DNA of 64,000 bases from Subsaximicrobium wynnwilliamsii. Its GTDB lineage: Bacteria; Bacteroidota; Bacteroidia; Flavobacteriales; Flavobacteriaceae. Under the pieces are notes generated by a model. That model saw nothing but the letters and a program-made list of their open reading frames with translations, was not told the origin of the DNA and did not search any database. This document shows, one piece after another, positions 12,874 to 46,441 of the stretch. The stretch spans positions 62,001 to 126,000 of the forward strand of contig NZ_VORM01000004.1 in NCBI RefSeq assembly GCF_007997225.1. Direction: 5' to 3'. Positions within the stretch are counted from its first letter, which is position 1. Each line of letters opens with the position of its first letter. Made by a program: the position numbers and the translations under genes.

Positions 12874-12917
12874 GTAACAAATGTTACACAAATAGAAAAC
12901 CATTTCCCTTATGTTTG
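12874..12917 (+). promoter_or_regulatory. CRP/FNR-type operator plus -7 box, sulfur operon
   Basis: GTAAC-AAAT-GTTAC at 12874-12887 is a perfect palindrome with a 4-base spacer. The box TATGTTTG at 12910-12917 begins 29.5 bp after its centre. The predicted transcript start is then about 41-42 bp from the centre, the class II activator position. The same spacing recurs at six other promoters in this window. Confidence 0.8.
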
Positions 12918-12924
12918 CAAACAC

Positions 12925-13287
12925 TTGAAAACAAAACCTTACATAGCGGCTCTGTTGGCATTCCTCTTTTTGGCAAAATTCATTGCCATAGATGCCAATG
13001 GGCTGAACGCCTTGTTCAGCGGGAGTGATATCACTTTCGTAAATCCGCATTGTAAAAAAGAAAAACTCGCAAATCTCTCAGAAAAAACAGCAAATCTCTC
13101 GCAAACAGATCAATTGGATTCTCGAGTGATTAACTTAGACGGTTTTTGCAGCGCTCAGTTTCAATTTGAATTGTTCACTTGGGAAACCGATTGCCCAAAA
13201 CCCAAAGCAGTTTTCAATGAACATTTCTCTTCAAGATTAAGTTTTCTGTACTTGGAAAACGCCTCTCCTCCTCCTCGTTTGGCTTAA
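12925..13287 (+). CDS. Small exported protein of unknown function, first gene of the sulfur operon
   Basis: A 120-residue protein opening with a hydrophobic export segment (IAALLAFLFLAKFIAI). The mature part has three cysteines (43, 75, 90) and ends SPPPRLA. The proline-rich C-terminus resembles that of the small protein upstream of the CusA-type pump (ends FQPPKLI). Similar small proteins sit next to metal or sulfur operons in flavobacteria, but no activity is known. The only in-frame start is TTG at 12925, just 7 bases past the predicted -7 box, so the message would be nearly leaderless or the promoter call is slightly off. Confidence 0.6.
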   Translation: MKTKPYIAALLAFLFLAKFIAIDANGLNALFSGSDITFVNPHCKKEKLANLSEKTANLSQTDQLDSRVINLDGFCSAQFQFELFTWETDCPKPKAVFNEHFSSRLSFLYLENASPPPRLA

Positions 13288-13378
13288 TACCCATGTAAAG
13301 TCGGTTTCGCAATGGTTCAAATGAACTATTGCTTATAGACACGGCAAAAAATCTAACATTCTATTTACAGCATTGACA

Positions 13379-13777
13379 ATGACGACAAAAATTTTAATTA
13401 GCCGTCGTTCCATACAATTATTACGCGTTTTTACCAGTGGTATCTTTCTCATTGCAGGGTTTAACCACCTACTCCATGTGGAAAAAACAGCCCAAAGAAT
13501 CGAACAAGCCAGTTTTAAAGGTATCGCCCATTTTTTTGGCGAACCACAATGGCTCATCATTTCATCGGGCATCGTAATGGTTGCGGCAGGATTTTTATTT
13601 CTTATAGGATATAAAACCAAATGGGCAGCAATAATTTTGATGGCAGTTTTAATCCCCATCACATTAACAGTTCAAGTAGGTCAAATAACTACCCTTGGAC
13701 CACTTTTTAAAAACATAGCAATTTTAGGCGGTCTTCTCTTTTTTATAGTGAACGACACCAATAATCCTTTAAAATAA
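13379..13777 (+). CDS. DoxX-family membrane protein
   Basis: A 132-residue protein with four hydrophobic helices in the DoxX arrangement: FTSGIFLIAGFNHLL in helix 1, then helices near residues 60-75, 80-95 and 105-125. In archaea DoxX is part of a thiosulfate:quinone oxidoreductase; in bacteria many DoxX proteins support redox or membrane-bound thiol functions. Its place ahead of DsrE-like, SoxB-like and TlpA genes makes a role in quinone-linked sulfur oxidation plausible, as inference. I prefer ATG at 13379 over the TTG two codons upstream. Confidence 0.8.
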   Translation: MTTKILISRRSIQLLRVFTSGIFLIAGFNHLLHVEKTAQRIEQASFKGIAHFFGEPQWLIISSGIVMVAAGFLFLIGYKTKWAAIILMAVLIPITLTVQVGQITTLGPLFKNIAILGGLLFFIVNDTNNPLK

Positions 13778-13783
13778 ACACAC

Positions 13784-14206
13784 ATGAAAACATATATTTT
13801 TAGTTCAATCTTTTTAATGCTTAGCCTCTTTAGCAACACGCATCTCGAGGCACAGCAACTAAACAGCAGCAAAAACAATTATGTGCTGCTCACTAAAAAA
13901 GTAGCCCAATTACAACCTATTATTCTAACTGCGGAAGCGCTTAAAGCAGAAGACGGCGAAAGCTTTGGAGATTTTCAGGTCATTATCTGCGGAAGAGAAA
14001 TAGGTGATATTACAGATTCCGAAAAAATGGATCCGTTTATTGAAAAGGCTGAAAAAGCAGGTGTCCAATTAATTGCCTGTGGGTTTTCGCTGAATAAATT
14101 CAAGATCGATAAAACAAAAGTCCCAAAGAAAATGAAGATTGTCGAAAACGGGATTCTTCATAATTTCCAGCTTCAGAAAAAAGGATATAAAAGCATAAGC
14201 CTATAA
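13784..14206 (+). CDS. Exported DsrE-family sulfur-carrier-like protein
   Basis: A 140-residue protein with a signal peptide (ending LEAQ) and a DsrE/DsrF-like alpha-beta fold. Its strands include NYVLLTKK, DFQVIICGREIGD and GVQLIACGFSL. Cysteines in VIICG and LIACG occupy positions that carry sulfur in DsrE relatives. It is likely a periplasmic persulfide carrier, given its position 6 bp after doxX and 2 bp before the SoxB-like gene. Family call good; activity inferred. Confidence 0.8.
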   Translation: MKTYIFSSIFLMLSLFSNTHLEAQQLNSSKNNYVLLTKKVAQLQPIILTAEALKAEDGESFGDFQVIICGREIGDITDSEKMDPFIEKAEKAGVQLIACGFSLNKFKIDKTKVPKKMKIVENGILHNFQLQKKGYKSISL

Positions 14207-14208
14207 CT

Positions 14209-15879
14209 ATGAGAACATTTATGAAATCATTTAAGCGCACATTTGCGGCAAGCTCAGTTTTCGCAGGAATACTAATGCTTTCGGTTTCCTGTAAAACGGA
14301 AACACCAAAATCAACGGCAAGCGCAACAAGTACAAAAGACACCTTGAGTATTACCATTTTGCAAACCGCCGATATTCACGGGCAGCTAGACACTCACCCC
14401 GAATTGTTCTGGGAAAATGAAAAAGTAGTCTTCAAGAATCGTGGTGGTCTTGCCAATATAAAGACCCTCTTTGAGCAAGAACGCAAAAAAAACCCCAATA
14501 GAACCATCATCGTAGATGGCGGAGATCTCATACAGGGGAGCGGCTATACAGCGCTTTCTGAAGGTAAAGTACTGCCGGAAATCATTAAAAATATGGGCTA
14601 TGACGTGATCATCCCGGGAAATTGGGAAGTTGTGTATGGCAAGGAGATCATGATGGATATTATGGCAGGCTATGAAACCGATGTCATCGTGCAGAACATG
14701 TATCATGACAAAACTAAAGCCCCGTTATTTCCGAGTTATTCAATTAAGGAAATTGAAGGCGTTCGCATTGGTTTTATAGGCCTTAACGATCCCGATGTGC
14801 CTGTTCGGCAAAACCCTGTTTTTAGTGAAGGCATAGGTTTTAGCGGCCTTGATGGTGAACTAAAGAAAATAGTGGATGACATCAAAGTGAACGAAAAAAT
14901 AGATGTGCTTTTCTTGGTCACACATATTGGTATTTTTAAGCAAATCGAACTTGCCAATAATCCCATTGCTGAAAATGCAGACTATATTTTGGGCAACGAC
15001 ACCCACGAGCGGGTAAGAGTTCCCATCCAAGGCACATATGCCAAGGTCACTGAGCCAGGCGCATTTGGCTCTTTTGTAGGAAAGTTGACGCTGCATTTTG
15101 TGGATGGAACATTGGTGGACGACGCTTATGAGCTCATCGATGTGGATCCAGAAGTATTTCCCGCAGACGAAACTATACAAGCACTTGTGGATAAGGCAAA
15201 AGCGCCGTACAAGGCACATTTAGAAACGGTGGTGGGTTACACAAATACGCCAATCTATAGGTATTTAACCGTTGAAAACCCAATGGACAATATGATTACC
15301 GATGCCGCTCGTTGGAAAACAGGTGCAGACATCTCCATCTCTAATGGTTTCCGTTTTGGAAATCCAATAGTGCCAAAAAACGGAAAACCTGAGCCTATTA
15401 CCCGAGCAAACTTATGGAATTTACTTCCAGTTAATGAACCCGTAAAAACTGGAAAAGCCACAGGTAAACAAATAAAGGACTGGTTGGAAAAGGAAATGCA
15501 CAATGCTTTTGCCCAAAACCCAACCGAGCGTTTCGGTGGTTGGCTGGTACGTTTCTCTGGCATGAAGGTCAATTTTAACAGTCAGAATGATAAGGGCAAC
15601 CGCATTTCTGCCATAGAAGTAAATGGGGAACCCATGGTGGATGAGCAATACTATACCGTTTCGGCTTGTGTGCGTCCCGGCGATCCGCTTGACAACCTGT
15701 GCCGCATTCCAAATGTCAAAGATGTTGAAGTGATGGATTATACCATACATGAGGCCGTTGAAGCGTATCTCAAAAAAAATTCGCCCATTTCACCCAGCTT
15801 GGAAGGGCGGGCGTATTGCGACTATCTTGGCAGGTATTCCTTTTCAACCGTACCAAATACAGATTATAAATTTCAATAA
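14209..15879 (+). CDS. SoxB-like / 5'-nucleotidase-superfamily lipoprotein
   Basis: A 556-residue envelope protein with a lipobox (LSVSC). The metallophosphoesterase half shows the dinuclear-metal motifs QTADIHGQ, DGGDLIQGS, GNWE, THIG and GNDTHER. The C-terminal half is the 5'-nucleotidase C domain with NGFRFG and ITRANLWNLLPVNEP. In ordinary 5'-nucleotidases the third motif is GNHE with a catalytic His; here it is GNWE, closer to SoxB thiosulfohydrolases, and GFRFG also recalls SoxB. With DoxX, DsrE and TlpA in the same operon, hydrolysis of a protein- or thiol-bound sulfonate is more likely than nucleotide cleavage. No other Sox genes are in the window. Confidence 0.7.
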   Translation: MRTFMKSFKRTFAASSVFAGILMLSVSCKTETPKSTASATSTKDTLSITILQTADIHGQLDTHPELFWENEKVVFKNRGGLANIKTLFEQERKKNPNRTIIVDGGDLIQGSGYTALSEGKVLPEIIKNMGYDVIIPGNWEVVYGKEIMMDIMAGYETDVIVQNMYHDKTKAPLFPSYSIKEIEGVRIGFIGLNDPDVPVRQNPVFSEGIGFSGLDGELKKIVDDIKVNEKIDVLFLVTHIGIFKQIELANNPIAENADYILGNDTHERVRVPIQGTYAKVTEPGAFGSFVGKLTLHFVDGTLVDDAYELIDVDPEVFPADETIQALVDKAKAPYKAHLETVVGYTNTPIYRYLTVENPMDNMITDAARWKTGADISISNGFRFGNPIVPKNGKPEPITRANLWNLLPVNEPVKTGKATGKQIKDWLEKEMHNAFAQNPTERFGGWLVRFSGMKVNFNSQNDKGNRISAIEVNGEPMVDEQYYTVSACVRPGDPLDNLCRIPNVKDVEVMDYTIHEAVEAYLKKNSPISPSLEGRAYCDYLGRYSFSTVPNTDYKFQ

Positions 15880-15891
15880 AAATTAAAAAAT

Positions 15892-16524
15892 ATGGACAAG
15901 AATAAAAAAAGCAAAGACACAAAGAAAACCTGGATTCAATATGGGGTTTTCGCCATACTAGCAGTCGTGTTATATGCAACAGGATTGCATACTGAAGTCA
16001 TTGGTTTTGCGCAACGCGGATTACTAGCAACCGGCTTGATGAATCCTGATGTGGCGGGAATTGCCCAAGCACAAAACAATGAAAACAGGAGTGAAACGGC
16101 TAATATAACGAAGCTCACTAAAGCCGATTTCAATTTTCAGATGATTGATCGGGATGGCAACACCAAGTCTTTGGAGGCACTGAAAGGCAAGGTCATCTTT
16201 ATGAACTTTTGGGCCACTTGGTGCCCTCCCTGTATTGCCGAAATGCCGAGTATCGATAAATTGCACGAAGAAATGGGCGATGATGTTGCTTTTGTGATAC
16301 TGTCATTTGACACCGATTTCGAAAAGGCTAAAGCATTTGACAAACGCAAAGGGTATGACCTGCCTATCTATGCGCCAGTAAGTGCGCTTCCCGCAATGTT
16401 TGAATCTAATGCCCTTCCCACCACCTATGTGATTGATGCCGCTGGCAACTTGGCATTGACCCATAAGGGAATGGCTGATTATGACAACCCTGAATTCAAA
16501 AAATTCTTGAATGGTCTAATGTAG
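15892..16524 (+). CDS. TlpA/ResA-type membrane-anchored thioredoxin
   Basis: A 210-residue protein with an N-terminal membrane anchor (FAILAVVLYATGLHTE), a linker, and a thioredoxin-like domain with active site WATWCPPC and the TlpA/AhpC-type cis-proline run LPTTYVID. It should reduce disulfides or persulfides in the periplasm. As last gene of the SoxB-like operon it resembles SoxW, which keeps SoxY or related carriers reduced. DsbD at 3.6 kb could supply its electrons. Confidence 0.87.
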   Translation: MDKNKKSKDTKKTWIQYGVFAILAVVLYATGLHTEVIGFAQRGLLATGLMNPDVAGIAQAQNNENRSETANITKLTKADFNFQMIDRDGNTKSLEALKGKVIFMNFWATWCPPCIAEMPSIDKLHEEMGDDVAFVILSFDTDFEKAKAFDKRKGYDLPIYAPVSALPAMFESNALPTTYVIDAAGNLALTHKGMADYDNPEFKKFLNGLM

Positions 16525-16693: not shown

Positions 16694-16771
16694 ATGTTTT
16701 TGACAGGCATTAAAGAGGTCGCCAGAATAAGCCCCTATTTGACCTTTGGTAATGCTACGGAAAACCAATAA
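16694..16771 (+). pseudogene. 25-codon frame resembling the 8.6-kb fragment
   Basis: ATG at 16694 to TAA at 16769-16771 encodes a peptide with IKEVARISPYLTFGNATENQ at its end. It matches the frame ending at 8690 at 13 or so of 20 positions. It overlaps the 3' end of the minus-strand ICMT-like gene by 17 bases. It may be a remnant of a lost gene copy or a short conserved peptide. Confidence 0.35.
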
Positions 16772-17213
16772 ATCTTCGGGTGCGCTTTTTATAGTTTTGA
16801 TATTCTGAAAATTTCTTGCTAAGCAATCCTTCTTCATAACGCGACTTAAAGTAAAATAAAATCAGAAGCAACACTGCTATCAAAATCTTATAAACCGATG
16901 ATTGATACACAGCATATCCAAATCCCGAAAAGATCAAAGCGGTGTAAATGGGATGTCTCGATATGCGGAAAGCGCCATTGGTTATCAATTTACCTGCTGC
17001 CACTGGCGACGGGAAAGGCGAAAGTTTGTTGTTTAGTTGCAAGAGCGCCACAATACCAAAGAGAAGGCCAATCCACAAAATAAACAAACCCAAATGGCTT
17101 AGCCATTCGGGTAGTTCTATTGTGATCAACTGTATTGGTAAAAAGTACACTACAAAAATAAGCAGTTGCACCATTACAAAAACATAGTCTTTTATGGGCT
17201 TTTTTAGGTTCAA
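16755..17213 (-). CDS. ICMT-like integral-membrane methyltransferase (COG2020)
   Basis: A 152-residue membrane protein of the isoprenylcysteine carboxyl methyltransferase-like family. It has three or four hydrophobic helices and the family C-terminal signature: NGAFRISRHPIYTA (cofactor-binding RHPxY) followed by SRYEEGLLSKKFSEYQ. The substrate is unknown. Its TTG start overlaps the stop of the persulfide dioxygenase gene (TTGA at 17210-17213), so the two are translationally coupled and probably share the promoter at 18.6 kb. Confidence 0.8.
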   Translation of the reverse strand: MNLKKPIKDYVFVMVQLLIFVVYFLPIQLITIELPEWLSHLGLFILWIGLLFGIVALLQLNNKLSPFPSPVAAGKLITNGAFRISRHPIYTALIFSGFGYAVYQSSVYKILIAVLLLILFYFKSRYEEGLLSKKFSEYQNYKKRTRRFIGFP

Positions 17214-18541
17214 TTTTTAAATTGTTCAACATCATCACTTAAGTCATAAACCGTGACTCCATTCAATTTGTATTCTAAAATGCTACTTCCGGCTGCACTG
17301 CGATAACCACCGGCACAATGCACAACGATAGGTTTATTGGTTGGAATATCTTTGGCGGTATCCCGTAACTCATTCAAGGGATGCGCATGTGCGTTTTCAA
17401 AAAACAGGCCTTCGTCGATCTCACTTTGATTGCGAATGTCAACAATGGTATAGTTATCTGGATTTTTCTTGAAATCTGCCAAATCCAATTTTTCTGTTTT
17501 CACTAAATTTTCATCTTTGAGCGTGATGATTTTCTTGAGTAGCTTTTCGTACCCAATTTTAGCGACACGGTGCAGTATTGGGTCTTTATTCTCTTTAGCA
17601 TCCAAAACCAAGGTAAACGAATCTTTCGGTTTAATGATCGCGCCCAGCCAAGTTTCAAATTTTGCGGTTACAGAAGCGGCTTGTATGTTTATGCTTCCTT
17701 TTAAATGGCCTTTCTTAAAGGCTACTTCATTTCTTACATCCACAATCAAACCTTCAGCAGCCGTATGGGCTTCAAACGGCACTTTTGCAATGGCAGGCTC
17801 TAAATTGTCGGCACCGGTTTTATTCATATCCACATCAAAGCCAAAATAATGTGGGATAAAGGGCTGGCCATCGAGCAGCGTATCCATGAATTCTTTTTTG
17901 GATTGCTTTTTAAATGCCCAATTGTTCGCGCGCTCATCCCCTAAAGTACTGCTGGCAGCGTCACTCAAATTCTTTCCGCAGAGCGAACCTGCGCCGTGGG
18001 CTGGAAAAACCAATGCGTTATCTGGCAAATCATTGAATTTTGTGCTAATGCTGTCATACATCATCTCAGCCAAATCTTCGCGCTTCGCTTTCATATTGCC
18101 CGCTTTTTCCCGAAGATCTGGTCGGCCCACATCGCCTATAAATAAGGTGTCGCCTGTAAATAGCGCCGTTTCATCGCCTTGCTCGGCAACTATGGTTATG
18201 CTATCTGGCGAATGACCCGGCGTGTTGATGGCTTTTAAGCTAATTTGACCCAAGCTAATACCATCACCTTCGTCAAAAGATTGGTGCGGATAATCGGCTC
18301 CCAATTTTTTACTGTTGTATATGGTAGCGCCAGTTGTTTTGTGAATCTCCAAATGTGAGCTCACAAAATCGGCGTGCGGATGCGTTTCAATAACAGCAAC
18401 TATTTTTGCATTGTTCGCTTCAGCATAGGCATAATATTGTGCGGGATTTCTTTCTGGGTCTATAACTGCCATTTTGCCTTCGCTTACAATGGCATAGGAA
18501 TAATGTGCCAGTGGTGTGTATTCAAATTGTTTTATCTTCAT
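17210..18541 (-). CDS. CstB-like persulfide dioxygenase-rhodanese fusion
   Basis: A 443-residue three-domain protein. Residues 1 to about 215 are an ETHE1-type metallo-beta-lactamase fold with THPHADFVSSH and the iron-site motifs PGHSPDSI, FTGDTLFIGDVGRPDL and FPAHGAGS. A rhodanese-like domain without an active-site cysteine follows (VDVRNEVAFKKGH). The C-terminal rhodanese has the loop HCAGGYRS with its Cys. This is the order found in CstB, which oxidises glutathione or CoA persulfide and releases thiosulfate or sulfite. It carries the GTAAC-type operator upstream and is followed by an overlapping ICMT-like gene. Confidence 0.9.
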   Translation of the reverse strand: MKIKQFEYTPLAHYSYAIVSEGKMAVIDPERNPAQYYAYAEANNAKIVAVIETHPHADFVSSHLEIHKTTGATIYNSKKLGADYPHQSFDEGDGISLGQISLKAINTPGHSPDSITIVAEQGDETALFTGDTLFIGDVGRPDLREKAGNMKAKREDLAEMMYDSISTKFNDLPDNALVFPAHGAGSLCGKNLSDAASSTLGDERANNWAFKKQSKKEFMDTLLDGQPFIPHYFGFDVDMNKTGADNLEPAIAKVPFEAHTAAEGLIVDVRNEVAFKKGHLKGSINIQAASVTAKFETWLGAIIKPKDSFTLVLDAKENKDPILHRVAKIGYEKLLKKIITLKDENLVKTEKLDLADFKKNPDNYTIVDIRNQSEIDEGLFFENAHAHPLNELRDTAKDIPTNKPIVVHCAGGYRSAAGSSILEYKLNGVTVYDLSDDVEQFKN

Positions 18542-18564: not shown

Positions 18565-18608
18565 TAAAAATAACAAAGATTATCCTAAAACACTGTAACC
18601 TTTGATAC
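18565..18608 (-). promoter_or_regulatory. CRP/FNR-type operator plus -7 box, persulfide dioxygenase
   Basis: GTAAC-CTTT-GATAC at 18595-18608 (one mismatch to the palindrome). On the minus strand TATTTTTA (complement of 18565-18572) begins 29.5 bp from its centre. This is the only imperfect member of the seven sites, but its spacing is exact. Confidence 0.7.
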
Positions 18609-18620: not shown

Positions 18621-19229
18621 TTATTTGAGTTTCCTAAACCTACAGAACTGGAAGTTCTGTAGAGTACCAAACGGGGTTTCGTGGTTTGTGCTAAGGCATT
18701 CTATTTTTGTGAAGTGATTTTCAAATACTTTTGACAATTCTACTGCGTCATATTGAGAAATTTCCAAACCACTACATTTTGTGGGGCCTTCTTTTGAAAA
18801 CGTACCAATGATCAAACTATCACGAACACATTTAGAAGCAATTGCCTGGTAATGCTCAATTTCTTCTTTCGAAGTTAAAAAATGGAAGGCTGCCCTGTCG
18901 TGCCATAAATCATAGGTTTCCTCTGGTTCAAAGGTGCTAATATCGCTCACAATCCAGCGTACTTTGCTGGCCTTTTCGCCTAAACGCTTTTTTGCTTTTT
19001 CGAGTGCTTTGGCAGAAATATCCAATATCGTAATATGTTGATAGCCTGCTTCAAGTAAATAATCCACAAGTTTGCTGTCCCCGCCGCCTACATCTATGAT
19101 TTTAGCTGTTTTGGCCAATCCTGTAGCTTCAATCAATTGCAATGAGATTTCAGGTTTCTCTTGGGTCCAACTTACCTGATCTGGGGTTTTATTTCCATAA
19201 ACAGCGTCCCAATGTTGTTTTGTATTCAT
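18621..19229 (-). CDS. Class I SAM-dependent methyltransferase
   Basis: A 202-residue methyltransferase. It opens with KQHWDAVYGNKTPDQVSW, typical of the thiopurine/tellurite-type small methyltransferases, followed by motif I (IIDVGGGDSKLVD), motif II (ITILDISAKAL) and a WHDRAAFHFL segment. The substrate is unknown; relatives act on small sulfur, selenium or metalloid compounds, which would fit the neighbourhood. The ATG at 19229 is preferred over a TTG two codons earlier. Its upstream region has no GTAAC-type site. Confidence 0.8.
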   Translation of the reverse strand: MNTKQHWDAVYGNKTPDQVSWTQEKPEISLQLIEATGLAKTAKIIDVGGGDSKLVDYLLEAGYQHITILDISAKALEKAKKRLGEKASKVRWIVSDISTFEPEETYDLWHDRAAFHFLTSKEEIEHYQAIASKCVRDSLIIGTFSKEGPTKCSGLEISQYDAVELSKVFENHFTKIECLSTNHETPFGTLQNFQFCRFRKLK

Positions 19230-19247
19230 TCTCAATTTTTTTTGTGA

Positions 19248-19370
19248 TCATTTTTCAATGTCTTGCAACCCACCAATGGAGACCCGTATTCCTTGAGCAT
19301 CCATAAAGGCCAATATACTATTGAACTGCTTGAAAGCATGCAGCCCGGCAAAAGAATTCAATCCTTCTGC
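19248..19370 (-). pseudogene. Possible 3' remnant of an unidentified gene
   Basis: A minus-strand frame without a start codon ends at TGA (19248-19250) and reads as plausible protein, including HAFKQFNSILAFMDAQGIR and VSIGGLQDIEK. It begins just after an in-frame stop, so it cannot be an intact gene. No family was recognised; it may be debris from a deletion. Confidence 0.3.
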
Positions 19371-19502
19371 TTAAAAATAAACGATTTTAGCCACAGGCAC
19401 AATATACCTTTAGCTTCTGAATGTTTCTAAATGTCTTCGGAATGCCTGCCAAACCACCACAACTTCTTAAATGTTGAATGGTTATGGAAGTCTTCCGCAG
19501 CC

Positions 19503-19856
19503 TTATTTTTTATATGGCCAGCGGCTATACCCTCCTTTAAAATCATAGATTTCTTTGAAACCCATGGCGTCAAGCTTTCTTGAGGCCTGCCCACTTCTAT
19601 TGCCAGATTGGCAATACAGGTAAACGGGTTTGTCTTTATCTAATTTCTCAAATGCGGTGTTGAATTTATTCTGCTGAAAAAAATCGATGTTTTTGGCCTT
19701 TTCAATAGCGCCTTTTTTAAATTCTTGTGCCGTGCGAACGTCAACCAATTCGACTTTTTTATTTGAAATGGCCTCCTTGAATGCTGAAGCGGAAAGCACT
19801 TTAATCGTATCGGTCTGTGCTGATTTGGAACCGAAAATCATACTGAATAATGTCAT
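19503..19856 (-). CDS. Single-domain rhodanese (paralogue of the 8.0-kb gene)
   Basis: A 117-residue rhodanese with active loop CQSGNRS and VDVRTAQEF. The start gives a short hydrophobic N-terminus (MTLFSMIFG), which is less clearly a signal peptide than in the paralogue at 8.0 kb, so its location is uncertain. It probably handles sulfane sulfur from the persulfide dioxygenase upstream. It has its own GTAAC-N4-GTTAC promoter. Confidence 0.87.
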   Translation of the reverse strand: MTLFSMIFGSKSAQTDTIKVLSASAFKEAISNKKVELVDVRTAQEFKKGAIEKAKNIDFFQQNKFNTAFEKLDKDKPVYLYCQSGNRSGQASRKLDAMGFKEIYDFKGGYSRWPYKK

Positions 19857-19894: not shown

Positions 19895-19938
19895 TGAAAT
19901 TATAAACTTAAAGATGGATGCTCGGTAACCTTTGTTAC
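19895..19938 (-). promoter_or_regulatory. CRP/FNR-type operator plus -7 box, rhodanese
   Basis: GTAAC-CTTT-GTTAC at 19925-19938. TAATTTCA on the minus strand (complement of 19895-19902) begins 29.5 bp from the centre. The start codon of the rhodanese lies 39 bases further on. Confidence 0.78.
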
Positions 19939-20012: not shown

Positions 20013-20672
20013 TTACAATGACTTTTTAGCGAGGTAGAAATCTACTTTCTCACAAGTATCGTCATTGATACGGTCATTCATTTGATCCAGCGTTTTTGGT
20101 GGCGGAACAATCACTTTATCCCCTTTTTTCCAATCCAAAGGCATGGAGACACTATGCTCATCTGAAAGTTGCAAAGCCTCAAGCGCTCTCAAGATTTCGT
20201 CCATATTTCTACCTACGTTGAGCGGGTAGTACATGATCAATCTGATTTTCTTTTTTGGATCTATAAAAAACACAGCCCGCACAGCTGCCGTTTCACTCTC
20301 GTTGGGTTGCAACATGCCGTAAAGCTTGGCTACCTTCATATCTATATCGGCAATGATAGGGAAATCAAAATAGACGCCTGTCTTTTCGCGAACGTTATTG
20401 ACCCACGCTAAATGGGAGTGGATACTATCAATACTCAATCCCAGCAACTCTGTATTTAATGCTGTGAATTCATCTTTTCGTTGTGCAAATCCGCTCAATT
20501 CCGTAGTGCAAACCGGTGTGAAATCGGCTGGATGTGAAAACATCACGGTCCACTTGTCTTTGGCAAAGTCAGCCATTTGTATATCGCCCTTAGTGGTTTT
20601 CGCCTTAAAGTCGGGGGCTTGATCGCCAATTCTTGGCATGGCGTACCCGGTATTCAATTCTTCATTTTCCAT
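20013..20672 (-). CDS. 1-Cys peroxiredoxin (Prx6 subfamily)
   Basis: A 219-residue peroxidase reducing H2O2 and organic hydroperoxides in the cytoplasm. The peroxidatic site is HPADFTPVCTTE, the Prx6-type PVCTTE form, and the long C-terminal arm (PPPKTLDQMNDRI) supports that subfamily. It is close to the usual length of about 215-225 residues. The upstream GTAAC-N4-GTTAC operator places it in the same regulon as the sulfur genes, so it may also act on persulfides; that is inference. Confidence 0.92.
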   Translation of the reverse strand: MENEELNTGYAMPRIGDQAPDFKAKTTKGDIQMADFAKDKWTVMFSHPADFTPVCTTELSGFAQRKDEFTALNTELLGLSIDSIHSHLAWVNNVREKTGVYFDFPIIADIDMKVAKLYGMLQPNESETAAVRAVFFIDPKKKIRLIMYYPLNVGRNMDEILRALEALQLSDEHSVSMPLDWKKGDKVIVPPPKTLDQMNDRINDDTCEKVDFYLAKKSL

Positions 20673-20697: not shown

Positions 20698-20741
20698 TAA
20701 AGTTACTCAAATTAATACTCAATAAGCGTAACTCAGGTTAC
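20698..20741 (-). promoter_or_regulatory. CRP/FNR-type operator plus -7 box, peroxiredoxin
   Basis: GTAAC-TCAG-GTTAC at 20728-20741. TAACTTTA on the minus strand (complement of 20698-20705) begins exactly 29.5 bp from the centre. On the plus strand the equivalent place holds only TATTGTAG, so activation of the truncated methyltransferase gene is less likely. Confidence 0.78.
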
Positions 20742-26091: not shown

Positions 26092-26135
26092 GTAACTTAT
26101 GTTACACCTATACTGGCTTAAATTTGATAAATTTG
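26092..26135 (+). promoter_or_regulatory. CRP/FNR-type operator plus -7 box, HMA/cytochrome operon
   Basis: GTAAC-TTAT-GTTAC at 26092-26105. TAAATTTG at 26128-26135 begins 29.5 bp from the centre. The first clear gene starts at 26393, so the message would have a leader of about 250 bases. Confidence 0.78.
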
Positions 26136-26392: not shown

Positions 26393-26677
26393 ATGAAAAC
26401 ATCAATTCCTGTACAAAACTTAAACTGTGGCGGTTGCGCCCATACGATTTCCAGTAACATCTCATCTATAGAACATAGATCCAATATTTATGTGGATGTG
26501 GAAACTAGTAGTGTTTCTTTTGAGCATAAGGATGATGTGAATGCGGTACTGGTAAAAGCACGATTAAAAAGTATAGGTTATCCATCTATCGAGAATGACA
26601 ACACATTGAGCTCCAAAGCAAAATCATTTGTAACCTGCGCCACGGGGAAATTTCACAGTAAAAATTCACAAACATGA
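26393..26677 (+). CDS. Small HMA-type metal-binding protein
   Basis: A 94-residue protein. The first 65 residues form a heavy-metal-associated fold with LNCGGCAHTISSN as metal loop (CGGC, a CxxC form), and the remainder is a short tail with a single Cys (VTCATGK). There is no signal peptide, so it should be a cytoplasmic copper or thiophilic-metal binder, or a carrier of persulfide. Its stop overlaps the start of the cytochrome gene by 4 bp (ATGA at 26674-26677). Confidence 0.78.
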   Translation: MKTSIPVQNLNCGGCAHTISSNISSIEHRSNIYVDVETSSVSFEHKDDVNAVLVKARLKSIGYPSIENDNTLSSKAKSFVTCATGKFHSKNSQT

Positions 26678-27684
26678 AAAAAACAATACTGCTTTCAATG
26701 CTACTGGTCTCGTTTTTGAGTTGTAAAAATTCTGAAAAAACAGAGTATGTTGCTGCCGAAGAGATCGAAGATGCACAACCGCATCCAGGTAAAAAACTTA
26801 TGGAAACCAATTGTTATGTCTGCCACAGTCCATCAGCAAGTCAAGCGGATAGAATTGGCCCGCCTATGATTGCTGTTAAAAAACATTATATCAACGAGAG
26901 CAGCACAAAAGCAGCATTCATTAGTGATCTACAAGCGTGGATTAAGAATCCAACCGCAGCGCATGCAAAAATGTACGGCGCGGTAAAGCGTTTTGGTGTG
27001 ATGCCAAAAACCGTTTATCCTGAAGAAACCATTGCTCTAATTGGAGATTACATGTTTGATAACGCCATTGAGCAGCCAGAGTGGTTTGAAGCGCATTTCA
27101 ACGGAGCAAAAGGAAAAGGAAAAGGTGCTAAGAATGGCATGGGTAAAGCAAAAAGTAAGCAGATGCAAAAGCAGCAGGCTGCCATAGATTTTGAAAACCT
27201 GAGTTATGCAGAACGCGGCTTAAAATACGCCATGACCACCAAAGCCGTATTGGGGAAAAACTTGATGCAAGCCATCCAAAATGAAGGCACTCTGGGAGCT
27301 TTGGCTTTTTGCAATGAAGAAGCCTACCCTTTAACAGATAGTATGGCGGTGGTACTTCATGCGAGCATCAAGCGCGTTTCCGATAAGCCAAGGAATCAAA
27401 ACAATCAAGCCAATGACGAAGAATTAGAGTATATTGAGACTTTCAAACAAGTAATTGCAAATCAAGAGGAGCCCAACCCAATTGTTAAAGAATTGGATGA
27501 TAAGGTGCAGGTATATTATCCAATCACAACCAATACCATGTGCCTGCAATGCCACGGGAAACCAAACAAGACCATGCAAGCCGCTACACTTCAAAAGATA
27601 AGCTTATTATATCCAAAAGATAACGCTATTGGTTACGATGTCAATGAAGTGAGAGGGATATGGCGCATTTCCTTTGATAACTAA
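26674..27684 (+). CDS. Exported di-haem protein: cytochrome c domain plus DUF3365
   Basis: A 336-residue lipoprotein-like protein (lipobox SFLSC). The first domain has a c-type haem motif CYVCH with a downstream Met in FGVMPKTVYP, resembling class I cytochrome c. A lysine/glycine-rich linker (GKGKGAKNGMGKAKSK) follows. The C-terminal domain, with ALAFCNEEA and a second haem motif CLQCH, is of the DUF3365/Tll0287 type, a haem-based redox sensor or electron carrier. Placed after an HMA protein and before thioredoxin, under the shared operator, it may pass electrons from sulfur oxidation; that is inference. Confidence 0.82.
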   Translation: MKKTILLSMLLVSFLSCKNSEKTEYVAAEEIEDAQPHPGKKLMETNCYVCHSPSASQADRIGPPMIAVKKHYINESSTKAAFISDLQAWIKNPTAAHAKMYGAVKRFGVMPKTVYPEETIALIGDYMFDNAIEQPEWFEAHFNGAKGKGKGAKNGMGKAKSKQMQKQQAAIDFENLSYAERGLKYAMTTKAVLGKNLMQAIQNEGTLGALAFCNEEAYPLTDSMAVVLHASIKRVSDKPRNQNNQANDEELEYIETFKQVIANQEEPNPIVKELDDKVQVYYPITTNTMCLQCHGKPNKTMQAATLQKISLLYPKDNAIGYDVNEVRGIWRISFDN

Positions 27685-27696
27685 AAACATAAAATT

Positions 27697-27993
27697 ATGA
27701 GTAAATTTTCAGAATTAATAAATCAAGATCAACCTGTTTTGGTTGATTTTTTTGCAGACTGGTGCGGACCCTGTAAAACCCTGGCACCAATATTAAAACA
27801 AGTCAAAGAAGACCTTGGAGATAAGGTCAAAATTGTTAAAATAGACGTGGATAAAAATCAGGCTTTAGCTGCCAAATACCAAGTGCGAGGTGTGCCAACA
27901 ATGCTATTGTTCAAAAACGGAAAACAAGTGTGGAGACAATCGGGTGTGCTTCAAAAAAATGATATCATCAACGTGATTAAGACCAATGGTTGA
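27697..27993 (+). CDS. Thioredoxin
   Basis: A 98-residue cytoplasmic thioredoxin with FFADWCGPCKTL and the cis-proline loop VRGVPTMLLF. It lies 12 bp after the cytochrome gene, so it is the third gene of the operon. It could reduce protein persulfides formed during sulfide stress. Confidence 0.93.
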   Translation: MSKFSELINQDQPVLVDFFADWCGPCKTLAPILKQVKEDLGDKVKIVKIDVDKNQALAAKYQVRGVPTMLLFKNGKQVWRQSGVLQKNDIINVIKTNG

Positions 27994-38320: not shown

Positions 38321-38340
38321 ATCCCTGCCTTCGCAGGGAC
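38321..38340. repeat. Short palindrome ATCCCTGCCTTCGCAGGGAC
   Basis: A 20-base hairpin with arms TCCCTGC and GCAGGGA, 5 bases before the permease start codon region. It belongs to the group of C/G-rich mini-palindromes seen also at 47.8 and 49.0 kb. Confidence 0.7.
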
Positions 38341-38345
38341 TTAGG

Positions 38346-39452
38346 ATGAAAAGATTCATAGGTTTTATAAAAAAAGAATTCTACCACATTTTTAGGGATA
38401 AACGCTCCTTGTTTATTCTCTTCGGAATGCCCATTGCCCAAATTTTACTGTTCGGTTTTGCCATTACCAATGAAATCAATAATGTGGACATCGCCATTTT
38501 AGACCATTCAAAAGATGCTACCACCAAAGAAATCATCAATAAAATAGCAGCTTCAAAATATTTCAGCATCAAGCAAATGATCGAACGCGAAGCAGACATC
38601 GCTTCGGTGTTTCAAAAAGGGCATGTGAAAGCAGTTTTGAATTTTGAAAGGGATTTCAGTAAAAACCTTATCAAAGACCGCAAAGCAACCATTCAAATAA
38701 TCACAGATGCCACAGACCCAAATACGGCAAACACCATCAGCAATTATGTCAACGCCATCCTTCAGCAGTACCAAAAACAACTGAATAAGGACATCACAAT
38801 TGCTTATCAAATCGTGCCGCAAACACGCATGGTATATAATCCGGAATTAAAAAGCGTGTATATGTTTGTTCCAGGGGTCATGACCATTATTTTGATGCTG
38901 GTTTCTGCAATGATGACCTCCATTTCCATCACAAGAGAAAAAGAATTGGGCACCATGGAAATTTTATTGGTATCGCCTTTAAAACCGTTTCAGGTCATTA
39001 TAGGAAAAGTGTTTCCCTATATTTTTCTGTCCATTATCAATGCTGTAGTGATTGTACTGTTAAGCATTTTCATATTCAAAATGCCAGTTCAAGGCAGCTT
39101 GTTTTTATTGGCTTTAGAAAGCATTCTGTTCATCATAAGCGCTTTGGCATTGGGCATATTGATCTCAACCATTTCAGCAACGCAACAAACCGCCATGATG
39201 ATTTCCTTAATGGGGCTCATGCTACCCGTTATATTATTGTCTGGATTTATTTTCCCGATTTCGAGCATGCCAATGCCACTTCAAATTATTAGCCATATCA
39301 TTCCGGCAAAATGGTTTATCATCATCATCAAAGGAATAATGCTCAAAGGTGTTGGTTTAGAATATCTATGGAAAGAAACAGTGATATTATTGGGAATGAC
39401 GGTGTTCTTCATTGCATTGAGTGTGAAGAAATATAAAATTAGGCTCGAGTGA
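38346..39452 (+). CDS. ABC-2 type permease, first of a pair
   Basis: A 368-residue permease of the YbhS/YbhR group: one N-terminal helix, a large extracytoplasmic domain (about residues 45-175) and five C-terminal helices with MTSISITREKELGTMEILL. With the second permease it should form the membrane part of the exporter driven by the ATPase pair. Confidence 0.88.
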   Translation: MKRFIGFIKKEFYHIFRDKRSLFILFGMPIAQILLFGFAITNEINNVDIAILDHSKDATTKEIINKIAASKYFSIKQMIEREADIASVFQKGHVKAVLNFERDFSKNLIKDRKATIQIITDATDPNTANTISNYVNAILQQYQKQLNKDITIAYQIVPQTRMVYNPELKSVYMFVPGVMTIILMLVSAMMTSISITREKELGTMEILLVSPLKPFQVIIGKVFPYIFLSIINAVVIVLLSIFIFKMPVQGSLFLLALESILFIISALALGILISTISATQQTAMMISLMGLMLPVILLSGFIFPISSMPMPLQIISHIIPAKWFIIIIKGIMLKGVGLEYLWKETVILLGMTVFFIALSVKKYKIRLE

Positions 39453-39466
39453 AATAGTTGGCAGTC

Positions 39467-39501
39467 GGTAGTGGGTAGTGGGTAGTGGGTAGTGGGTAGT
39501 G
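39467..39501. repeat. Perfect 5 x 7-bp tandem repeat GGTAGTG
   Basis: Five identical units between the two permease genes. Unit number may vary between strains; an effect on the permease downstream is possible only through the leader. Confidence 0.95.
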
Positions 39502-39611
39502 AAATAAAAATAGTCGAGTACCTGCTTGTCGGCAGACAGATTCGTGGCAAAAAAACGAGTAAAAATTAAAAAGAGATTCCCATTGGAGTTTATCTTAAGC
39601 GGAGTCTAAAG

Positions 39612-40745
39612 ATGGGAAATATTATGAAAATAATCGGCTATATCATCCAAAAAGAGTTCAAGCAAATCTTTAGAAATAAAGGCATGCTTCCCATCATTTT
39701 TGTGCTGCCACTACTCCAACTTATTATTTTATCAAACGCAGCCACTTTCGAAGTTAAGAATATCAAATTTGCCTATATTGATCATGATCATACCTCGACA
39801 TCTAGAGCATTGGTTGAAAAATTCAGTGCCTCCACTTATTTTGATGTGCTTACCCATTTTCCTTCGGAAGGCTTGGCAAGTTCAGCAATGCTGAGGGGCG
39901 AAGTTGATGTGGTTTTGGAGATTCCACGGTACTTTGAGCGCGATTTACAAAATGAGAAACACCACACTTTAGGGGTGACCATCAATGCGATTGATGGCGC
40001 AGCAGCAGGAGTGGAAAATGTTTACGTTAATCAGATTATTCAGGGTTTTAACCAACATTTGAAGGTTGATTTGTTACAGCCTTCCGATCAGGTTATTCAG
40101 CCCCTAAGTATTGACACGATTCCCCTATTCTGGTACAACGAAACCTTAAATTATAAAACCTTTATGGTGCCCGGGATTTTGGTGTTGCTGGTTACAATGA
40201 TCACGCTGTTTCTTTCAGGAATGAATATTGTACGTGAGAAAGAAATTGGCACCCTCGAGCAAATCAATGTGACACCCATTAAAAAAAGCCAGTTCATCAT
40301 TGGAAAGCTCTTTCCTTTTTGGGTCATTGGGATGGCGCTATTGACTATCGGTTTAATCATCGCCAAACTCATTTTCAACGTCCCCATGATTGGCAGCTTA
40401 CCGCTCATGTATTTCTACACCTCCATATATATTTTAGTGGTTTTGGGGATTGGTTTGTTCATCTCAAATTTTACGGACACACAACAACAGGCCATGTTTA
40501 TCGCTTGGTTTTTTACGGTTATTTTCATTTTAATGAGTGGCTTATTCACGCCTATTGAGAGTATGCCGCAATGGGCGCAAATTGTCACTGAGTTCAATCC
40601 CATCAAATACTTTGTAGAAGTCATGCGCATGGTCATGCTCAAAGGCTCCGGATTTATGGATATTCTTCCGCAGGTCTTAAAAACATTGCTTTATGCATTG
40701 GTCATGAATGGTTTAGCGGTTTGGAGTTATAAAAAAACAACCTAA
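39612..40745 (+). CDS. ABC-2 type permease, second of a pair
   Basis: A 377-residue permease with the same topology as the preceding one (IGYIIQKEFKQIFRNKGML, a large loop, then MNIVREKEIGTLEQINVT and the C-terminal helices). It ends the TetR-controlled operon. ATG 39612 and an ATG four codons later are both possible starts. Confidence 0.88.
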   Translation: MGNIMKIIGYIIQKEFKQIFRNKGMLPIIFVLPLLQLIILSNAATFEVKNIKFAYIDHDHTSTSRALVEKFSASTYFDVLTHFPSEGLASSAMLRGEVDVVLEIPRYFERDLQNEKHHTLGVTINAIDGAAAGVENVYVNQIIQGFNQHLKVDLLQPSDQVIQPLSIDTIPLFWYNETLNYKTFMVPGILVLLVTMITLFLSGMNIVREKEIGTLEQINVTPIKKSQFIIGKLFPFWVIGMALLTIGLIIAKLIFNVPMIGSLPLMYFYTSIYILVVLGIGLFISNFTDTQQQAMFIAWFFTVIFILMSGLFTPIESMPQWAQIVTEFNPIKYFVEVMRMVMLKGSGFMDILPQVLKTLLYALVMNGLAVWSYKKTT

Positions 40746-40752: not shown

Positions 40753-40796
40753 GTAACTAATGTTACGCTGCTTTTTGAAAAAGGAACCTATCTTCA
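40753..40796 (+). promoter_or_regulatory. CRP/FNR-type operator plus -7 box, SQR-like gene
   Basis: GTAAC-TAAT-GTTAC at 40753-40766. TATCTTCA at 40789-40796 begins 29.5 bp from the centre, 16 bases before the ATG of the SQR-like gene. Confidence 0.78.
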
Positions 40797-40811: not shown

Positions 40812-42269
40812 ATGGCTAAAATAGTTGTCTTAGGCGCAGGAATATCAGGTCACGCAGCAGCATCTCACTTACGCAGAAAGCTGCCTAAAGAACATGAAGT
40901 TGTAGTAGTGTCGCCTAATAGTAATTACCAATGGATTCCATCGAATATCTGGGTTGGCATTGGCAGAATGAAATCTGAAAAAATTCTATTCCCATTAGCG
41001 CCATTATACAAAAAGAAACATATTGGTTATAAACAGGCTAAAGCGGTTTCGTTCTATCCTGAAGGCGATCAAAAGGAACAAAAACCTTATGTTCTGGCGG
41101 AATATGTCTTTGGCGAACAGAAAGGCCAACAAGAAAAAATTACCTACGACTACTTAATCAACGCCACAGGACCGAAACTTAATTTTGAAGCTACTGAAGG
41201 CTTAATTCCTGGAAAAAACAAGGCCTATTCTGTGTGCACCTATACCCATGCAGATCATGCTTGGGAGGGTTTAAAGAAATTGATTGAGCAGATGAAACAG
41301 GGCAAGAAAGCGAAAATTTTAATTGGTACAGGCCATGCAAAATCCACCTGTCAAGGTGCCGCTTTTGAGTACATTTTAAATGTGGAAGAAGAACTGCGCA
41401 AACATAAGGTGCGTGACATGGCTGAAGTGACTTGGATTTCCAACGAATACCAATTAGGCGATTTCGGAATGGATGGCATGTTGCTGAGTTATGGCAGCAT
41501 GACCATGAAATCCCACGAAATGATTGAAATGATTTTTGAAGATCGCGATATCAAATGGATCTTGGGTGCTGGTGTCAACAAAATTGAAGATGGTGTGGCG
41601 CATTACGAAAATTTGGAAGGCGAACAGAAATCAGAAATCTATGATTTTGCAATGCTTATCCCCTCGTTTTCTGGTCATGGTTTTAAAGCCTTTGATAAAA
41701 ACGAAAACGACATTACAGAAAAACTCTTCAAAGGATTTATGATTGTCGATGCCAATTATACACCAAAACCATACGAAGAATGGTCTGTGCAAGATTGGCC
41801 AGAAACCTATCAAAATCCGACTTACAAAAACATTTTCGCACCCGGAATAGCATTCGCGCCACCCCACAGCATTTCAAAACCTAGAAAGAGCAAAAACGGA
41901 ACAGAGATTTTCCCTGCACCACCACGCACGGGAATGCCTTCTGGAATTACGGCTAAAATAGTGGCAGACAATATTATAGATACTATCAAGAACGGAAAAG
42001 AATCCTTGACCCATAAAGGATCTATGGGAAATATGGGTGCAGCATGTATTGCTTCTGCAGGCTTCGGCATGACCACAGGAAGTGGCGTAAGCATCACCAC
42101 CTATCCCATTGTACCAGACTATGAAAAATACCCAAAAACACAAGGCCGACAATTAAGCAAAACCTTTGGGGAAATTGGTTTGGCAGGGCATTGGCTCAAA
42201 CTAAGCTTACACTATGCCTTTATTTATAAAGCCAAAATGCGACCATTTTGGTGGTTGATTCCTGAATAG
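40812..42269 (+). CDS. Sulfide:quinone oxidoreductase-like flavoprotein
   Basis: A 485-residue FAD-dependent oxidoreductase. The dinucleotide motif is VVLGAGISGHAAA, and a second one is seen at ILIGTGHAKS. Exactly three cysteines (142, 180 and 412) fall in the positions expected for SQR, whose Cys triad carries polysulfide during sulfide oxidation. The C-terminus has the amphipathic run typical of membrane attachment. It would oxidise sulfide and reduce quinone, feeding persulfide to the CstB-like enzyme. The family also includes flavocytochrome c subunits, so the exact electron acceptor is inferred. Confidence 0.8.
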   Translation: MAKIVVLGAGISGHAAASHLRRKLPKEHEVVVVSPNSNYQWIPSNIWVGIGRMKSEKILFPLAPLYKKKHIGYKQAKAVSFYPEGDQKEQKPYVLAEYVFGEQKGQQEKITYDYLINATGPKLNFEATEGLIPGKNKAYSVCTYTHADHAWEGLKKLIEQMKQGKKAKILIGTGHAKSTCQGAAFEYILNVEEELRKHKVRDMAEVTWISNEYQLGDFGMDGMLLSYGSMTMKSHEMIEMIFEDRDIKWILGAGVNKIEDGVAHYENLEGEQKSEIYDFAMLIPSFSGHGFKAFDKNENDITEKLFKGFMIVDANYTPKPYEEWSVQDWPETYQNPTYKNIFAPGIAFAPPHSISKPRKSKNGTEIFPAPPRTGMPSGITAKIVADNIIDTIKNGKESLTHKGSMGNMGAACIASAGFGMTTGSGVSITTYPIVPDYEKYPKTQGRQLSKTFGEIGLAGHWLKLSLHYAFIYKAKMRPFWWLIPE

Positions 42270-44831: not shown

Positions 44832-44844
44832 TTTGCCTTATAAT

Positions 44845-45210
44845 ATGAAAAAAGAAACTATCAACATCGACCATAGAAAAAAAATCTTTAAAGCCCAATT
44901 AAATGGAGTTGGTTTTAAAGAAGGTGATGCTCATATCATTTATCTTCCAAGTCTTCAAATATCTTCTTACGGAGAATGTATAGAGGAAGCTAATGAAATG
45001 ATGAAAATTTCTCTAAATGAATTTTCAGAAAATTTACTTCAATTGGATGAATTGAAAATTAATTCAATTTTAAAACAGTTAGGTTGGGAAAAAGCTAAAT
45101 TCTTTGATAAGAGATTAGTCCATTTGAGTGAAACTACTTTTGAAGATATTAAAAAAGAATTTAATCTTCCAGACGACACTCAAGTTCAAAAAATCCCAAT
45201 AGCTGTTTAG
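44845..45210 (+). CDS. HicB-like antitoxin
   Basis: A 121-residue protein. The central region YLPSLQISSYGECIEEANEMMKI has the HicB pattern of a strand pair followed by a helix that starts with the small-Glu-Ala motif. The C-terminal part is predicted helical. I prefer ATG 44845 over the TTG four codons earlier. It is followed 2 bp later by an HicA-like gene, so the pair is probably a type II toxin-antitoxin module in the HicB-first order. Confidence 0.7.
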   Translation: MKKETINIDHRKKIFKAQLNGVGFKEGDAHIIYLPSLQISSYGECIEEANEMMKISLNEFSENLLQLDELKINSILKQLGWEKAKFFDKRLVHLSETTFEDIKKEFNLPDDTQVQKIPIAV

Positions 45211-45212
45211 CA

Positions 45213-45452
45213 ATGGGTGAATACAATAAACCTGTGCCAACTAAATGCTGGGAAGCCTACCTTACTTTTTGTGGTTGTGTTTTTGACCGGCAACAAGGAA
45301 CTCATCATCACTGGAAATGCCCGAATTGTTGGAGAACTGTAACTTTTTGGGGACATAAAAAAGATGTTCCCAGATTTCACATTGGAACATGTTTAAAATC
45401 TATGGGGAAAACCAATTCTGAATTCAACAAATGGGCAAAGAAGAATTGTTGA
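45213..45452 (+). CDS. HicA-like toxin with zinc-ribbon-type cysteines
   Basis: A 79-residue protein. The HicA core is visible: GTHHHWK corresponds to the catalytic GSHH loop, followed by TVTFWGHKK and FHIGTCLKSMG. It also has C20-G-C22 and C36-P-N-C39 flanking the active-site loop, which ordinary HicA proteins lack. In the family HicA cleaves mRNA; whether this version is active or binds zinc is inference. Confidence 0.7.
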   Translation: MGEYNKPVPTKCWEAYLTFCGCVFDRQQGTHHHWKCPNCWRTVTFWGHKKDVPRFHIGTCLKSMGKTNSEFNKWAKKNC

Positions 45453-45673
45453 TAAAAATAATCATTTGCCAACATTGCGTATCATTAATTGCTCCTTATC
45501 CTGTAAATCCTATCGGGTTTTCAAGTTCGTTTTTATTTGCTAAATTTACTGCTTGAGACACGCAACTAATCGTACTCAAGAGTGTCCCCTTCTTAAAATA
45601 AATGGCTTCTATTTTCTAATGCTTCTATTTGTTAAATTAGGACTAGTTAGCCGATTCCTATTCCAATTCTGGA

Positions 45674-46123
45674 TTAAACCTCCTCCAAAACTCGTTTCGA
45701 CTTTCTATAAATATAGTTAGGATAAATATTCCGTTTTGCAAAACGGTTGAGCTTATCGCTATTGATCATTTTAATATAGACTGGTTTGGTAACCCCAAAA
45801 TATTCGTAAGTAGATCCATCCAAAAACGTGATTTCCAATAATAAGCCTTTATGCACGTAATCTGCAATCCCAGAATTTGTGATGGTTTCGGTATAGTTTG
45901 GCAAATTGGCTTCAATGGTTTCTGGTGCGATGCTTACCAAAAAGTGATACCCATCAATAATCTTTCGGCTTTGTATTTCCGCTTCTTCCTGTAAGGCGTC
46001 TCCATTCTGAAACTTGTCTGGATGCCACGCTTTCACTAAGTCGCGGTAACTCTTCTTCAAGGTCTTTAATTCAACTTGATTTTCGACTCCAAAGAGTTTC
46101 TTGTATTCGTTTATGCGCTTCAT
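45674..46123 (-). CDS. J-domain plus KTSC-domain protein
   Basis: A 149-residue protein. Residues 1-65 are a J-domain with the HPD motif (VKAWHPDKFQNGD), which stimulates Hsp70. Residues about 85-145 are a KTSC domain (LEITFLDGSTYEYFGV), often linked to lysyl-tRNA or nucleic-acid proteins. Function is unknown; the pairing is common in this phylum. Confidence 0.8.
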   Translation of the reverse strand: MKRINEYKKLFGVENQVELKTLKKSYRDLVKAWHPDKFQNGDALQEEAEIQSRKIIDGYHFLVSIAPETIEANLPNYTETITNSGIADYVHKGLLLEITFLDGSTYEYFGVTKPVYIKMINSDKLNRFAKRNIYPNYIYRKSKRVLEEV

Positions 46124-46397
46124 ATCAATTTTTTATTTGAGGGCGCAAAAGTACGCTATAATATCACATGAAATACTATAATACGCTTTATTGCTGTGTT
46201 AAATATTTATTAGCGCCTTGCTGTTCTTTCTGCTGAAAACCAATAATTTATAAATCCAATTGCAAAGACCTCTTTTCGAGCATTGAGAAACCGTCGGAAT
46301 CCTCGATGCATACCACGAAACTCGCAAAATAATCGAACTTCAGAATCACTGATTATGGCTGAAACTGAAAAGCCTCCTCAAGGCTGCTGCTTTGTAT
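46124..46397. other. Spacer between divergent genes
   Basis: No gene was found. The left part should hold the J/KTSC promoter, and the right part the operator at 46398. No other motif was seen. Confidence 0.5.
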
Positions 46398-46441
46398 GTA
46401 ACATTGGTTACTGAGCAAAACGATCTTCCAACCTATTTTTG
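46398..46441 (+). promoter_or_regulatory. CRP/FNR-type operator plus -7 box, RND operon
   Basis: GTAAC-ATTG-GTTAC at 46398-46411. TATTTTTG at 46434-46441 begins 29.5 bp from the centre, 20 bases before the tolC ATG. Confidence 0.8.

Follow-up and report, generated by a model that had tools for sequence, protein, structure and literature searches.

We analysed a 64,000-nt window of a contig from Subsaximicrobium wynnwilliamsii (Flavobacteriaceae; genome, 4.9 Mb), in which seven promoters carry the palindrome GTAAC-N4-GTTAC ahead of a −7 box, and considered P0001, a Crp/Fnr-family protein encoded elsewhere in the genome, as their candidate regulator. The original prediction, made from the letters of this window, had placed seven such palindromes between 12874 and 46441, with a −7 box starting exactly 29.5 bp from each palindrome centre. 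Extraction of both strands bore out both claims: all seven palindromes were present, six of them exact and the one at 18595 with a single mismatch (GTATC), and each of the 14-mers was followed by 22 bp and then TAnnTT. The operators and their boxes are as follows.

12874..12887, + strand: operator GTAACAAATGTTAC, exact match; −7 box TATGTTTG at 12910..12917, + strand, spacer 22
18595..18608, − strand: operator GTATCAAAGGTTAC, 1 mismatch; −7 box TATTTTTA at 18565..18572, − strand, spacer 22
19925..19938, − strand: operator GTAACAAAGGTTAC, exact match; −7 box TAATTTCA at 19895..19902, − strand, spacer 22
20728..20741, − strand: operator GTAACCTGAGTTAC, exact match; −7 box TAACTTTA at 20698..20705, − strand, spacer 22; the + strand there reads merely TATTGTAG
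26092..26105, + strand: operator GTAACTTATGTTAC, exact match; −7 box TAAATTTG at 26128..26135, + strand, spacer 22
40753..40766, + strand: operator GTAACTAATGTTAC, exact match; −7 box TATCTTCA at 40789..40796, + strand, spacer 22
46398..46411, + strand: operator GTAACATTGGTTAC, exact match; −7 box TATTTTTG at 46434..46441, + strand, spacer 22

Transcript starts deduced from the boxes would place each site centre about 41.5 bp upstream, the class II position, and the distance to the −7 box fits this geometry at 7/7 sites. Within the window, the 14-mer with up to one mismatch occurred 8 times against 1.07 expected, and 0 of 100 shuffles reached 8. The exact 14-mer had 8 copies genome-wide (reversed-letter control, 37), 6 of them inside the 33.5-kb stretch, a concentration with a probability of about 4e-10 (rough binomial, corrected for the number of stretches); the exact motif is thus not equally frequent at random places. 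With up to one mismatch there were 84 matches genome-wide versus 572 in the reversed control; at that scale the 14-mer by itself shows no enrichment, and this looser motif is uninformative without the box. The enrichment lies in the local cluster and in the composite of site and box. Scanning 144 kb of the contig with up to 2 mismatches and spacers of 21-23 bp returned the seven sites, two 2-mismatch matches and no others, and the genome held six composites of site, 22 bp and TANNTT. We rejected as regulon members a one-mismatch match at 6728, which lacks a TAnnTT box at spacers of 21-23 bp, and both of the exact copies on other contigs (C43 and C88), because the six exact window sites already cover the six genome composites.

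The genes behind the seven sites, labelled by Pfam and similarity, are these.

12925..16524, + strand (site at 12874): operon of an unknown gene (no Pfam), DoxX, DsrE-like, SoxB-related 5'-nucleotidase-family and redoxin/TlpA-like genes
16755..18541, − strand (site at 18595): metallo-beta-lactamase-fold protein with rhodanese domains, then a DUF1295/PEMT-family gene
18621..19856, − strand (site at 19925): rhodanese at 19503-19856; methyltransferase-domain gene at 18621-19235
20013..20672, − strand (site at 20728): peroxiredoxin with a 1-Cys C-terminal domain
26393..27993, + strand (site at 26092): operon of HMA-domain, cytochrome c/Tll0287-like and thioredoxin genes
40812..42269, + strand (site at 40753): SQR-like flavoprotein
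46461..52965, + strand (site at 46398): operon of TolC, MFP, RND pump, unknown and YgaP-like transmembrane protein genes

The original prediction had the correct set of targets, listed in an order that is not that of the coordinates; its DUF2892 gene is the YgaP-like transmembrane protein. In the first operon, the DsrE-like gene scored just below its cut-off and the SoxB-related protein reached 253.6 bits with the SoxB model (cut-off, 550); gene orders like that of this operon also lie behind sites in loci L053 and L216, and TolC/MFP genes recur behind sites in relatives. The metallo-beta-lactamase-fold protein would be a PDO-rhodanese, and the methyltransferase-domain gene may lie on the same transcript as the neighbouring rhodanese. 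For the SQR-like flavoprotein, the best NCBIfam model was an SQR, at 55.2 bits against a cut-off of 525. A leader of about 250 nt (26136-26392) separates the 26092 promoter from the HMA gene; for a 62-amino-acid open reading frame within it, tblastn in the fetched loci gave only E≥1.2 outside its own locus. Judged by the sites only, operators in the window and in relatives precede SQR-like, PDO-like and sulfur-transport genes, as expected of persulfide-responsive regulators.

At least one composite was found in 227 of 299 sampled genomes of the family (718 matches), against 40 matches in 36 genomes for the reversed pattern. When the spacer was left free between 10 and 34 bp in 120 genomes, with the box TANNTTTG, 117 of the 150 matches listed had a spacer of 22, 12 had 21, 6 had 23 and 15 were spread over the remaining 22 lengths, so the fixed distance claimed for the window is conserved in relatives (spacing and composite counts were read by hand from listings). 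The seventh and eighth letters of the box, which are free in the TANNTT search, were T in 24/30 and G in 18/30 fetched loci. Alignment of 60 sites, half of which came from a search with TTTG fixed, revealed no strong further element in the 22-bp spacer and AT-rich letters at the four middle operator positions. At the phylum level, 26 of 296 genomes matched with the box TANNTTTG: 16/30 in the same family, 1/6 among other genomes of the order, 9/37 among others of the class and 0/223 in other classes.

The genes downstream were tallied in 30 loci (L030-L059), one per genome, drawn from genomes with composite sites. By blastp, the downstream protein resembled a member of a reference set in 22/30 loci (L054 at only 28%), the matched kinds being TolC/MFP, PDO-rhodanese, SQR-like, cytochrome, rhodanese, peroxiredoxin, TlpA and DoxX-DsrE, together with SulP, YeeE, TauE and molybdopterin sulfite-oxidase-like proteins. 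The reference set was built from the window targets, genes beside P0001 and loci picked for closeness of site and regulator, which makes this tally partly circular; L041 and L048 match entries of their own genomes. In L038, L039 and L056, a similar membrane protein, weakly DUF4386-like in L038, stands behind the composite site. The single sulfide or persulfide regulon of the original prediction agrees with these comparative data, namely the recurrence of the composite, the conserved spacing and the sulfur genes behind the sites.

The regulator gene had been expected outside the window, and a Pfam scan of the genome, which gave five Crp-type HTH loci (PF13545) and thirteen cNMP domains (PF00027), yielded a candidate, P0001, at C56:290318-290953. 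P0001 belongs to the Crp/Fnr family by both domains (PF00027, 37.9 bits, cut-off 27.5; PF13545, 36.2 bits, cut-off 27), and its recognition helix is SRVVVSR. When the 13 cNMP-domain proteins were aligned on E. coli CRP, P0001 alone had Arg at CRP position 180; 11 of the other 12 aligned at this position (L276 poorly), and L270 gave no helix. Arg at position 180 has been tied to the G of the operator (PMC1274295). The genes following P0001 encode a Sulf_transp (YeeE-like) protein, a DUF6691/Sulf_transp protein and the start of a TauE-like protein.

P0001 homologues (E≤1e-20) occurred in 255 of the 299 family genomes. Sites were present in 222/255 genomes with a homologue and in 5/44 without (Fisher, 1.5e-23, kinship not corrected), and 4 of these 5 genomes are ≤87% complete. 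With the FNR-like protein of the same genome as a control, sites were present in 201/240 genomes with a homologue and 26/59 without, a comparison blurred by the other Crp paralogues that E≤1e-20 also takes in; among discordant genomes, sites occurred in 24/28 with a P0001 homologue only and in 3/13 with an FNR-like homologue only. Proximity was measured in 35 mapped genomes (the genome under study and those 34 of 55 genomes with listed sites for which a regulator place was listed too; the other 21 were left out). Of their 117 sites, 23 lay within 1 kb and 33 within 5 kb of a P0001 homologue, against 0.11 and 0.43 expected, and 18/35 genomes had a site within 5 kb. The FNR-like control, which covered 26 of these genomes and used just the top match in each, gave 0 and 1 of 78 sites at these distances. 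In a genome of the same genus (G267), the P0001 homologue lies among clustered sites that precede TauE-like, PDO-rhodanese, cytochrome and SQR-like genes, and second homologue copies can also adjoin sites (G101, G087 and G012). Twenty such adjacency stretches were chosen because site and regulator lie close together in them; they do not form a sample.

Collectively, we consider it likely that one Crp/Fnr-family activator, P0001, uses all seven sites as its operators and that these make up a persulfide-sensing regulon. The sites, their spacing, their recurrence before sulfide and persulfide genes and their association with P0001 homologues are seen directly in the sequences; activation and persulfide sensing are inferred. 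Promoters of the Bacteroidota are of the −33/−7 type. A P0001 dimer bound to GTAAC-N4-GTTAC, centred some 41.5 bp upstream of the transcript start, would replace the −33 element and bring the housekeeping polymerase of the Bacteroidota to the TAnnTTTG box by class II activation, with Arg at CRP position 180 predicted to read the operator G. Persulfide or polysulfide would switch DNA binding on by modifying Cys78, Cys84 and Cys85, which lie where the cyclic-nucleotide pocket would be. The regulon would then oxidise sulfide (SQR-like) and oxidise and transfer persulfide sulfur (PDO-like, rhodaneses, DsrE-like); it would also protect thiols (peroxiredoxin, thioredoxin) and export products.

P0001 has cysteines at 78, 84 and 85 only, and the N-terminal Fe-S cysteines of FNR proper are absent from it. 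The three were invariant in 47 alignment rows, and across 128 homologue loci in three groups, in which some genomes figure twice, Cys78 was kept in 128/128, Cys84 in 128/128 and Cys85 in 127/128. In 27 further loci, hand-picked and mostly from genomes with two homologues, the counts were 27/27, 18/27 and 21/27. A predicted structure of the homologue L093, 73% identical to P0001, adopted a Crp fold (mean pLDDT 86.2, pTM 0.62) whose best structural matches were 3dv8, a Thermus CAP and further structures of CRP and NtcA. In this model, Cys84-Cys85 are predicted to lie in a short helix aligned with the CRP phosphate-binding cassette and Cys78 before it; residues 81-90, which include two of the cysteines, are its least certain block (pLDDT 60).

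Several observations weigh against a P0001-driven persulfide regulon. P0001 is not on the contig of the window, 0/8 exact sites are on its own contig, and the 14-mer closest to it, at C56:288955, has one mismatch and sits within the TauE-like gene. In 17/35 genomes, every site is more than 5 kb away from any homologue. In a tree of 71 selected rows, P0001 grouped with proteins of Gelidibacter, Winogradskyella and Tamlana in subclade A (27 rows; support, 100/99), and 17 of the 18 regulators from adjacency stretches fell into subclade B (27 rows, 96/91), the other one being in A; the helix reads SRVV[IV]SR in either subclade. Among A-type genomes, defined by a homologue of ≥56% identity, 13/46 lack a composite site, including the same-genus G045. 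Composites with spacer 21-23 occurred in 7/80 loci of close P0001 homologues (most of them with flanks of about 10 kb, a few with less), a count that speaks against tight linkage in subclade A. At eight of the 30 unselected sites, the genes downstream have no counterpart in the reference set (L030, L031, L037, L038, L039, L042, L050 and L056). As for the cysteines, L255, a homologue beside sites in G087, has neither Cys84 nor Cys85, another homologue, L171, lacks Cys85, and L246, from a genome with sites, has all three with Glu at 181; given L255 and L246, the link between cysteines and operator is not strict. Furthermore, the sites could in principle repress, and a metal signal, too, would be compatible with the HMA and TolC/RND targets. 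In its own genome, the A-type P0001 probably serves the whole site set, because no other Crp-type candidate seen in that genome fits.

Other explanations of the sites were weighed against this reading. That P0001 binds them and senses something else, be it general thiol oxidation, nitric oxide, a metal such as copper, or a small pocket ligand, is unlikely in our view; the targets include HMA, peroxiredoxin, thioredoxin and TolC/RND genes, cysteine clusters are able to bind metals, and the 20728 site sits between the peroxiredoxin and a Fur-family/P-type ATPase pair, but the genes behind the sites of relatives include PDO-like, SQR-like, rhodanese, TauE, YeeE, SulP, DsrE/SoxB-related and sulfite-oxidase-like ones. 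A different regulator of the genome, such as the FNR-like protein (contig C10), a REC-Crp fusion (contigs C78 and C54) or a protein of another family, has only a slim prospect of being the binder: P0001 is unlinked to the window and a REC-Crp gene is on the window's contig, yet the FNR-like and REC-Crp recognition helices have Thr-Glu rather than Arg at 180-181, and the FNR-like control was weaker in both association tests. Chance palindromes beside promoters would suit the lack of genome-wide enrichment of the one-mismatch 14-mer; the local clustering, the exact spacing and the recurrence in 227/299 genomes reduce this explanation to a negligible one.

A further alternative is that a true HcpR2-type regulator, responding to nitric oxide or nitrosative stress, owns the sites and that the sulfur genes were recruited to it. 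In G525 and G517, genomes of the same class with no P0001 homologue at E≤1e-15, the composite precedes genes that by eye look like hcp and a YecH-like gene; no Crp-type gene was recognised by eye near these sites, in 16 and 12 kb respectively. The predicted HcpR2 consensus, GTAACnnnnGTTAC, is moreover the same letter for letter (PMC1274295). Against this, hcp is absent among the seven targets (the rest of the genome was not searched for it), HcpR2 is described with Pro at 181 where P0001 has Val (PMC1274295), and no cNMP protein of the genome aligned with Arg180-Pro181. We hold such an origin of the sites to be very improbable.

A Fur-family gene at 21110-21526 was rejected as the regulator; nothing ties it to the sites, and no dedicated test of it was made. 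On the same contig, the REC-cNMP-HTH fusion regulator adjoins a large sensor kinase (C78:145686-150118; window +83.7 to +88.1 kb), and genes 12-15 kb from the fusion presumably encode phosphotransacetylase and acetate kinase. From 61377-62300 on to +66.9 kb, across the window end, lie what we take to be a LysR-like gene followed by DabB/DabA inorganic carbon transporter-like genes. Elsewhere in the window, a PDDEXK_3 gene (37494-37985) stands amid a run of ABC-2 efflux genes (31834-40745), a single open reading frame of 1437 amino acids at 53554-57867 looks by eye like an RND pump joined to a TolC-like C-terminal part, and an ATP-cone plus Mrr_cat protein (29612-30454) adjoins a beta-CASP protein and a universal stress protein.

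Beyond the window, we lean slightly towards a wider proposal: a class of Crp/Fnr-fold persulfide sensors, in which cysteines replace the cyclic nucleotide in the pocket and which act as class II activators through an operator shared with HcpR2, may govern how this family and certain other Bacteroidia handle sulfide and persulfide. If true, a widespread Crp/Fnr-type system, with a named regulator, would give flavobacteria and their kin a sulfide switch; poorly known genes, namely the 12925 gene and those for the YgaP-like, DUF6691 and DUF4386-like proteins, would be tied to sulfur handling; and one operator would serve two Crp subfamilies with different outputs.

Among solved structures, the best relative of P0001 by both sequence and fold is 3dv8, a Crp/Fnr structure from Eubacterium rectale, which has cysteines at two of the three places and the helix HREVITR; we know of no regulon for that protein. 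Cyanobacterial NtcA shares the recognition-helix pattern R-V-x-V-x-R with P0001 in the alignment. NtcA recognises GTA-N8-TAC and senses 2-oxoglutarate, in the service of nitrogen, and P0001 scored 42.6 with the NCBIfam NtcA equivalog model against a cut-off of 244.95.

HcpR2, known from Bacteroides among others, is a Crp/Fnr-type regulator with the operator consensus found here (Rodionov et al. 2005, PMC1274295). By its published description, it has Pro at 181 and is predicted to control only hcp in most Bacteroides, whereas a sulfur regulon and Val at 181 are found here; P0001 also differs from that description by Cys-x5-Cys-Cys in the pocket. Since the composite also precedes hcp/YecH-like genes in genomes without P0001 homologues, the same operator seems to be in use by two Crp subfamilies. 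In the open-access literature, we did not find the HcpR2-consensus operator used by a P0001-type protein for sulfur genes, nor did we recognise a paper on a Crp/Fnr persulfide regulon of Bacteroidota, an absence that is weak evidence. The persulfide regulators described in the accessible parts of PMC9774590 and PMC7315123 are CstR, SqrR/BigR and FisR, of CsoR, ArsR and sigma-54 type. The FisR and BigR/SqrR regulons have SQR, PDO and TauE genes and yeeE-yedE-pdo2 as targets (PMC7315123, PMC9774590), which are of the same kind as those proposed here. FisR is a sigma-54 activator and BigR/SqrR are ArsR-type proteins, in contrast to the Crp/Fnr protein and the Bacteroidota-type −7 boxes described here.

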